Shown here one piece after another: positions 58,829 through 60,020 of a stretch of 64,000 bases of DNA. The position numbers and the translations under genes are program-made. Each line of letters starts with the position of its first letter. Positions within the stretch are counted from its first letter, which is position 1. The notes under the pieces are model-generated. The model made no database searches. It was not told the DNA's origin and saw only the letters and a program-made list of their open reading frames with translations. The DNA comes from an uncultured Bacteroides sp. (GTDB lineage: Bacteria; Bacteroidota; Bacteroidia; Bacteroidales; UBA932), in assembly GCA_900543205.1 (NCBI GenBank), contig UQQM01000002.1:1-64000 (forward strand), written 5' to 3'.

Positions 58829-59418
58829 GTAAGCTAAAAGAATTGATACAGAATCTTTGTCCGGATGGGGTAGAATATAAGAAGTTAGGAGAATTATTGG
58901 ACTATGAACAACCTACAAAATATATAGTAGAAAGTACTGAATATGACAACTCTTATGATATACCTGTACTAACTGCTGGACAAACTTTTGTATTGGGCTA
59001 TACAAATGAGAAATTTGGAGTATATAGAGCAAGTCAAGAAAATCCAACTATCATATTTGATGATTTTACAACATCCTTTCATTGGGTAGACTTTGAATTT
59101 AAAATTAAAAGTTCTGCAATGAAGATGTTAAGACCGAAAGGAACTTTTGATGGTTCTTTCAAATATGTTTATTATGCAATGAAATGCATCAAATATGAAG
59201 CAATAGATCATACTCGTCATTGGATATCAAAATACTCCCAATTTGAAATTCCTTTCCCCCCTCCTGAGGTGCAGAAGGAAATAGTTAACATTCTTGATGA
59301 TTTTACAAATCTTGCAGCGGAGCTGCAAGCGGAGCTGCAAGCGAGGAAGGAGCAGTATGAATATTACCGGAATAAATTGTTAACATTTGATAAAATAGGG
59401 GGGGTACGCAAAGCGTAA
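58825..59418 (+). CDS. hsdS: Type I specificity subunit HsdS, first half (ends at a G7 tract)
   Basis: 197 residues carrying a single target-recognition domain (TRD1, about 1-150) and the central helical spacer. N-terminus MSKLKELIQNLCPDGVEYKK is typical of HsdS. The first TRD ends SKYSQFEIPFPPPEVQKEI, then the long helix with AELQ-AELQ repeats (residues 165-172) and EQYEYYRNKLLTF. The frame terminates right after the G7 tract (59398-59404) with GGVRKA-stop, while the second half continues in another frame. It is therefore a truncated specificity protein in this sequence state; such half-HsdS proteins can dimerise and give symmetric recognition, as known for NgoAV. Confidence 0.9.
   Translation: MSKLKELIQNLCPDGVEYKKLGELLDYEQPTKYIVESTEYDNSYDIPVLTAGQTFVLGYTNEKFGVYRASQENPTIIFDDFTTSFHWVDFEFKIKSSAMKMLRPKGTFDGSFKYVYYAMKCIKYEAIDHTRHWISKYSQFEIPFPPPEVQKEIVNILDDFTNLAAELQAELQARKEQYEYYRNKLLTFDKIGGVRKA
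59317..59340 (+). repeat. 12 bp tandem repeat (two copies) encoding AELQ in hsdS
   Basis: GCGGAGCTGCAA occurs twice in tandem and a third copy begins (GCGAGG). It encodes AELQ-AELQ-AR in the central spacer helix. In EcoR124I/EcoDXXI a change in copy number of a 4-residue repeat in this very helix changes the gap length in the DNA recognition sequence. Confidence 0.85.
59398..59404 (+). repeat. G7 homopolymer tract at the break in hsdS
   Basis: Seven G's. With 8 G's (or 5) the first-half frame (..DKI-GG) would run directly into GGTQSVTWMKMSEIGTF, the natural join to the second TRD. With 7, translation stops 12 bases later. Confidence 0.9.
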
Positions 59419-59423
59419 CTTGG

Positions 59424-60020
59424 ATGAAAATGAGTGAGATAGGTACATTTATAAGAGGCAAACGATTTGTAAGGACAGACATTGTTAGTGATGGTGTTCC
59501 TTGCATTCATTATGGTGATATGTACACATATTACGGACTATATACAACTCAAAGTAAAGGGAGACTTAGAAGTGAGCTTGCCTCAAAAATGAGATATGCT
59601 CAAAAAAATGATGTAGTAATTGTTGCCGCAGGTGAAAATAAAGAAGACATTGGCATTGGGTTAGCTTGGATTGGAGATGAGCCTGCAGCGGTACATGATG
59701 CTTGTTTCATATTTAGGAGTGATTTGTATCCTCAATATGTTTCGCACTATTTGCGCTCAGATTATTATCATAAGCAAATAGTTAAGTATGTTTCTGAAGG
59801 AAAGATATGTTCTATATCAGCAAAAGGTTTAGGTAATACCATTATTCCAGTTCCCCCTTATGAAGAACAAGTAAGAATAGCTACACTACTTAATAATTTT
59901 GATGCATTGGTGGGTGACCTTACCGAAGGTCTTCCAGCAGAAATGGCCGCAGTGCAGGAACAATACGAATATTATAGAAACAAATTACTATCATTTTCAA
60001 GAATCCAAATAAGCGCATAA
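59424..60020 (+). CDS. hsdS: Type I specificity subunit HsdS, second half
   Basis: 198 residues with the second TRD (about 1-150: GTFIRGKRFVRTDIVSDGVP, GDMYTYYGLYTTQSKGRL) and a C-terminal spacer helix resembling the first-half helix (EQYEYYRNKLLSFSRI). The first Met at 59424 is probably not a natural start: frame-wise, the sequence upstream back to the G tract is open and continues the HsdS fold (GGTQSVTW). It can be expressed as a fusion only when the tract has 8 or 5 G's. Otherwise it may be translated by reinitiation, since 5 bases separate it from the upstream stop. Confidence 0.9.
   Translation: MKMSEIGTFIRGKRFVRTDIVSDGVPCIHYGDMYTYYGLYTTQSKGRLRSELASKMRYAQKNDVVIVAAGENKEDIGIGLAWIGDEPAAVHDACFIFRSDLYPQYVSHYLRSDYYHKQIVKYVSEGKICSISAKGLGNTIIPVPPYEEQVRIATLLNNFDALVGDLTEGLPAEMAAVQEQYEYYRNKLLSFSRIQISA

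Follow-up and report, generated by a model that had tools for sequence, protein, structure and literature searches.

A variable G run between the two halves of a Type IC-like hsdS gene in Bacteroidota is a candidate switch between fused and split specificity subunits

The window, by which we mean the whole 64,000-nucleotide stretch analysed, contains on its + strand a Type IC-like restriction-modification operon that extends from 57016 to the window end. The order of the operon is HTH, hsdM, hsdS N-half, a run of seven G, hsdS C-half, a prrC-like gene and hsdR, with the following features:

57016..57225, + strand: small HTH (Cro/C1-type) gene starting with ATG, 5' of hsdM (Pfam HTH_3 1.3e-08 on 57010-57225)
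57272..58828, + strand: hsdM, Type I methyltransferase subunit (TIGR00497 653.5 bits, cut-off 242.75; Pfam N6_Mtase and HsdM_N)
58825..59418, + strand: hsdS N-half (TRD1 and central helix), 197 aa, ending GGVRKA-stop at the G7 run (Pfam Methylase_S 6.3e-11)
59317..59340, + strand: two 12-nt units coding AELQAELQ, resembling the TAEL repeats of Type IC HsdS (from the sequence)
59398..59404, + strand: G7 run between the TRDs, proposed slippage site (from the sequence; 6-10 G in relatives)
59416..59430, + strand: N-half stop TAA at 59416-59418, then the first C-half ATGs at 59424 and 59430 (from the sequence)
59424..60020, + strand: hsdS C-half (TRD2 and C-terminal helix) with its own ATG, 198 aa (Pfam Methylase_S 2.9e-09; stand-alone relatives of 198 aa)
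60022..61155, + strand: prrC-like gene, candidate anticodon nuclease (PADLOC PrrC 8.7e-143, profile 19-348/372; Pfam AAA_13 2.6e-19)
61164..63998, + strand: hsdR, Type I restriction subunit, with its 3' end beyond the window (TIGR00348 676.3 bits; Pfam HSDR_N and EcoR124_C)

HsdM and HsdR are of the EcoR124 kind, with scores above the cut-offs for TIGR00497, which we take to be a marker of Type IC, and for TIGR00348, and with EcoR124_C present in HsdR. The AELQAELQ stretch represents TAEL-like repeats in the central helix of HsdS. The prrC-like gene is located within the operon between hsdS and hsdR, and a search of the PDB returned no sequence match for its product. The HTH gene product is 97-100% identical to its counterparts in L204 and L203, the two nearest relatives of the operon (in L203 across 53 residues).

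The initial annotation placed two hsdS frames, 58825-59418 and 59424-60020, on either side of a run of seven G and read both as halves of HsdS. Coordinates, frames and arithmetic are correct, and each frame matches Pfam Methylase_S. The proposed natural continuation in the other frame behind the run is also present and reads GGTQSVTWMKMSEIG, while the upstream frame ends GGVRKA-stop. The run breaks hsdS exactly between its two TRDs and is the only G7 or C7 run in the 64-kb window. Dinucleotide shuffles predict about 12 such runs in the window compared with the one observed, indicating that the genome avoids them and that the shuffle is unusable as a null; it was dropped and the position among real long runs was used instead. 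The G run recurs again and again at the hsdS junction: the fetched loci L001-L202, 2.77 Mb in total, contain 26 G or C runs of at least 8, of which 15 are found at this junction, directly following the central conserved region of hsdS, with three of the 15 being second copies (L160, L162 and L180 duplicate L006, L002 and L022).

Homologs had been suggested as the place to look for variation in tract length, and lengths do differ both across relatives and in otherwise identical predicted proteins. Including the window, 17 distinct loci possess 7-10 G at the hsdS junction. Nine are in frame across the run (L204, L206, L207, L006, L036, L022, L082, L209 and L210) and eight are out of frame (the window, L203, L205, L002, L001, L024, L039 and L212), so that, as in the NgoAV system discussed below, a poly-G run lies between the TRDs with some lengths in frame and others not. 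L209 is in frame across the run, yet meets a stop 237 nt further on, and L005 carries G6 at the junction, in frame. The 17 loci come from the best-ranked matches and do not represent a census: of more than 539 relatives in the contig scan, the best 80 were retained, and whole-genome searches with HsdM at E 1e-200 gave matches in 10/393, 3/249, 2/249, 13/399 and 28/296 genomes of overlapping sets. Scans of viral contigs with HsdS queries yielded one distant locus (L202) in one case and none in the other, and a plasmid search gave no relative above 80% identity. Two E. coli-type HsdS genes of viral contigs, L118 (near 12136) and L119 (near 6907), with an in-frame G7 behind the central conserved region, were left out of the 17 loci; no ATG is found near the G7 of L118.

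Near-equal flanks (AAAATA before, TACGCAAA-CGTAAC-like behind) surround G7 in the window, G9 in L203, GGT+G8 in L204 and G10 in L205, so all three frames occur, and relatives with G8 in the window's flank type read through. The flank-sharing loci belong to different genomes whose HsdM is 83-97% identical to that of the window; the DNA comparisons are thus between species, and the flank comparison alone is not within-strain variation.

Matching N-halves or C-halves are found both alone and fused among database proteins, all of which are predictions from assemblies. P0154 (421 aa), P0164 (422 aa) and P0168 (420 aa) show zero mismatches across 420-421 aligned residues and differ by one residue each, a glycine at the junction (GG, GGG and GGGG), a series that length changes of three G would give. 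Variation of the run within one allele, the NgoAV-like behavior, is consequently seen at the protein level only and in multiples of three G. The fused P0230 (399 aa) and the half-length P0267 (204 aa) show 100% identity as far as the conserved region extends, after which their frames differ, P0090 and P0242 are 99.5% identical up to the same point, and the C-half P0014 (198 aa) is 100% identical to the end of the fused P0133. The proteins closest to the window's N-half, P0241-P0243 (90-95% identical), terminate in GGGYAKRN(L/M)DENE, which is the other out-of-frame reading of the window's spacer. Among the best 120 of 3964 N-half matches, 90 are half-length, ending no more than 40 aa past the conserved region, with GG in 60 of their tails and a DENE-type end in 19; the 30 of these 90 listed relatives that have no GG tail indicate that half HsdS genes also arise without such a run. 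Of the best 120 of 784 C-half matches, 68 have at most 215 aa and 36 start exactly at the MKMSE/MSE/MGE methionine.

Start and stop codons lie close to one another at the junction. The first frame of the window ends with the stop at 59416-59418, 5 nt before the ATG at 59424, and the third frame stops at 59435-59437, behind the second ATG (59430). We compared 16 tract junctions (15 of the 17 loci and L118; L001 and L209 were dropped for having fewer than 95 codons open behind the run) with 98 tractless fused junctions, 59 of which lie below 42% GC and provided GC-matched controls. An ATG is located within 48 nt at 13/16 tract and 22/98 tractless junctions, and an ATG with both other frames stopping no more than 25 nt from it at 12/16 compared with 11/98 (6/59 when GC-matched). 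For the latter layout, the Fisher p values against all and against the GC-matched controls, 3e-7 and 9e-7, are both too small because the junctions share descent. The 98 fused junctions replaced earlier controls that included C-terminal ends of hsdS genes and had an ATG near an alternative stop in 56/170 cases. In addition, the usual leucine of the WKTLGE motif is a methionine at 9/16 tract and 1/98 tractless junctions, with the position unscorable in 3/16 tract and 14/98 control rows; in a looser comparison the single methionine control is L005, whose own junction carries G6. The ATG-beside-stops layout is common, not universal: neither L210 nor L212 has an ATG close to the run, and L024 fails the 25-nt criterion.

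Both hsdS halves in the window are intact, and seven of the eight out-of-frame loci have a C-half that can be read through without a premature stop; in the remaining one, L001, the contig ends first. AlphaFold models of both halves are confident and match HsdS structures, with a mean pLDDT of 90.8 for the C-half, which best matches the half-size protein Esub1 (8vsr), and 86.8 for the N-half, which best matches EcoR124I S at 52% identity. TRD1 aligns with the N-terminal half of the S chain of EcoR124 (residues 12-197, 2.1e-63), and judging from this match the half-site of TRD1 is likely GAA. For the five copies with this TRD2 (window, L002, L205, L204 and L206), dN/dS of the C-half ranges over 0.04-0.19; dS exceeds 1 in 7 of the 10 pairs, and the closest pair, the window and L204, gives a dN/dS of 0.19. 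The substitution pattern indicates purifying selection on the C-half, in whichever state, fused or split; dN/dS is uninformative on the selected state because two of the copies, L204 and L206, read in frame and a locus may alternate between states.

When mapped on a quick tree of HsdM with 139 rows, the 18 run-bearing loci (the 17 and L005) require at least seven changes, at least five of which are forced by starred branches. Eleven of the 18 are found in one 13-member clade (SH-aLRT 99), where L003 has no run and L007 ends before hsdS. A run of at least 6 G is therefore present in 11 of the 12 readable loci of this clade despite differing TRDs, indicating that the run is kept through exchange of TRDs.

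Overall, the run, its lengths and its surroundings suggest a phase-variable Type IC-like hsdS in which poly-G slippage probably toggles between one fused chain and two half-HsdS chains. Slippage would be the cause of the changes in run length and the window, with G7, would represent the split state. According to the initial annotation, G7 gives a half-length HsdS with one TRD; the break is real, but in place of a single half there are two complete half ORFs, the second with an ATG where the first ends. Translation of the C-half probably occurs by coupled reinitiation, as the N-half ends near the C-half ATG in both out-of-frame readings. The half-subunits would pair as N+N, N+C and C+C, and the split state would add palindromic targets to the fused-type target, methylating the TRD1 palindrome and perhaps, in addition, the palindrome of TRD2 and the fused-type target. 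Effects of the switch on the methylome and on phage immunity, as envisaged in the initial annotation, would follow from such changes. More tentatively, we propose as one possible form of the mechanism a natural fuse/split switch in which a change of one G turns a one-target chain into two separately translated, freely pairing half-chains that could address up to three targets at once (TRD1-TRD1, TRD1-TRD2 and TRD2-TRD2), with the ATG and stops kept for coupled translation across a Bacteroidales clade and the PrrC-like nuclease restrained in every phase.

The comparison with NgoAV drawn in the initial annotation is sound. Poly-G switching of hsdS is known in that system, so the switch in the window would not be of a new kind. 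NgoAV is a Type IC system of Neisseria gonorrhoeae with a poly-G at the end of hsdS1, 6-9 G long in 92 strains; at one of the lengths hsdS1 and hsdS2 are joined and the target is altered, and the second half is reported to be incomplete and inactive (PMC9577141, as far as its accessible text goes). Both systems carry the poly-G run in hsdS between the TRDs. Given the precedent of an hsdS1 truncated at poly-G next to an inactive hsdS2 (same part of PMC9577141), the window could instead hold a switch between full-length and truncated HsdS, where out of frame only the N-half would be made or active, with a palindromic N-TRD target and a silent C-half. We regard this as unlikely, since most tract loci have an open C-half with an ATG next to the stop of the N-half and 36 of the 120 listed C-half matches, which are predictions and not expression, start at that ATG. 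In contrast to NgoAV as described in that text, the C-half of the window is not incomplete but 198 aa long, open and modeled as a folded half HsdS, and an ATG usually stands where both out-of-frame readings stop. This complete C-half speaks for a variant of the NgoAV kind, not against a switch, and in our reading a fused/split switch is preferred over a full-length/truncated one. What distinguishes the present case from NgoAV is a complete second half that has a start of its own, the spread of the layout through a Bacteroidota clade and the prrC-like neighbor. A literature search, mostly covering papers outside subscription, found none dealing by title or abstract opening with poly-G hsdS switching in Bacteroidota.

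It is very improbable that the window allele is a broken hsdS with a run that does not switch, produced by ordinary decay or by an error of assembly. The allele is known from one assembled sequence and homopolymers attract sequencing errors, but in eight of 17 loci the frame is lost at this one position, and the seven of them that are readable to the end show no other damage, the run is kept across a clade with differing TRDs, and matching proteins occur in several states. We would give just as little credence to programmed recoding, that is ribosomal -1 frameshifting or transcript slippage on the G run yielding both forms from a fixed sequence. G7 has the form of a slippery heptamer, from which a -1 shift would lead into the frame of the C-half; however, relatives carry 7, 8, 9 and 10 G and no single shift serves all of them. 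The palindrome TACGCAAAGCGTA behind the run is present in the window and L204 and broken in L203 and L205, and a conserved stem-loop at this position was rejected on these grounds. A change of specificity by recombination or inversion between hsdS copies, with an incidental G run, is likewise very improbable: some 1 kb upstream of hsdM there is a gene for a tyrosine recombinase (54983-56215), but within the window, which ends inside hsdR, the ORFs of 50000-64000 include no second hsdS and the repeat pairs listed for 54500-64000 contain neither inverted repeats belonging to such a copy nor a long near-perfect inverted repeat in hsdS, and among 20 loci listed only L003, L005, L024 and L082 have a related recombinase (23-36% identical).

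Half-length specificity subunits are known from other Type I systems. In the accessible sections of PMC3874165, EcoR124I delta-50 is reported to recognize GAA-N7-TTC and EcoR124I GAA-N6-RTCG, Type IC half-subunits dimerize, and co-expressed N- and C-halves of EcoDXXI regained parental activity. The halves described here are likewise Type IC-like, with a TRD1 matching the EcoR124 N-TRD, but those of EcoR124I and EcoDXXI are laboratory mutants whereas the present split form occurs naturally and goes with a run whose length varies. Half-length HsdS is shared with the engineered CC398-1 half-S enzymes, which recognize a palindrome (PMC6158711), and with H. pylori, where single-TRD HsdS and homopolymer switching of specificity are known (PMC3936762); these halves have palindromic targets, and the accessible parts of both papers do not describe switching by poly-G between two complete halves. 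A survey quoted in PMC7394358 is said, in the portion available, to find SSRs in 7.9% of Type I hsdS genes, and the repeat in hsdS described here is of this general type. Phase-variable Type I specificity is also a feature of inverting multi-hsdS loci of the SpnIII type, but these, as outlined in the same portion, recombine between hsdS copies with inverted repeats, and such repeats were not found within the window.

The Type IC operon of EcoprrI also has an embedded prrC gene, and what is accessible of PMC3874165 mentions no poly-G run in its hsdS. In EcoprrI, the R-M complex retains PrrC until T4 infection releases it. If this behavior holds here, a phase without any complex could free the PrrC-like nuclease, and a split state that still assembles would thus be favored. 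Under a fuse/split switch a complex would form in every phase and the PrrC-like nuclease would stay restrained too. A PrrC relative is present in 45 of the 212 fetched loci, a set in which many loci end too early to show one or are second copies. L203 and L204 do not contain PrrC, which is thus dispensable for the switch. The S subunits of Type I systems are almost always fused, which has been explained as fixing TRD pairing (PMC3874165, in its accessible sections), and a lineage with both forms behind one slippery run would make this idea directly testable. If the proposed fuse/split switch is true, a one-base event could change methylation and restriction in these Bacteroidota, an event that routine annotation records as a frameshift. 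The likeness of TRD1 to the EcoR124 N-TRD (GAA) provides testable motifs: together with the two AELQ repeats, it predicts that the fused form would methylate GAA-N6-(TRD2 half-site) and the split form GAA-N7-TTC, with the TRD2 palindrome and the fused-type target added if the C-half is active.

The GC content drops from 0.62 (53500-54499) to about 0.36 across the hsdS and prrC-like genes, a change suggestive of an acquired operon. Directly 5' of the HTH gene, TATCTTTG at 56992-56999 fits TAnnTTTG, the consensus of the -7 promoter element of Bacteroides. No RNA family reached its gathering score in 52000-64000. Relatives contain differing extra genes between hsdM and hsdS, including a YhcG/DUF1016 nuclease-like gene (L203:9608-10657) and an ORF6N-domain gene (L204:6602-7225), and DUF1016-like matches near hsdM are also found in L001, L207 and L211. 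The tyrosine recombinase encoded at 54983-56215 carries Phage_integrase and Arm-DNA-bind_5 domains. Behind its gene, 56226-56412 holds two nested inverted repeats, with 28-nt arms that are 79% complementary and, inside these, 15-nt arms that are 100% complementary and 59 nt apart; possible readings are an invertible segment, a MITE-like element or a stem-loop. The proteins P0241-P0359 include many predicted half-length HsdS with GG-less tails, and from these sequences single-TRD HsdS genes without poly-G seem to be common in metagenomes. The 12-nt AELQ repeat is present in 1-3 copies across 11 loci, with one copy in L204 and two or three in the others. As spacer length in Type IC systems is set by such central repeats, differences in AELQ copy number may be a second source of target change.
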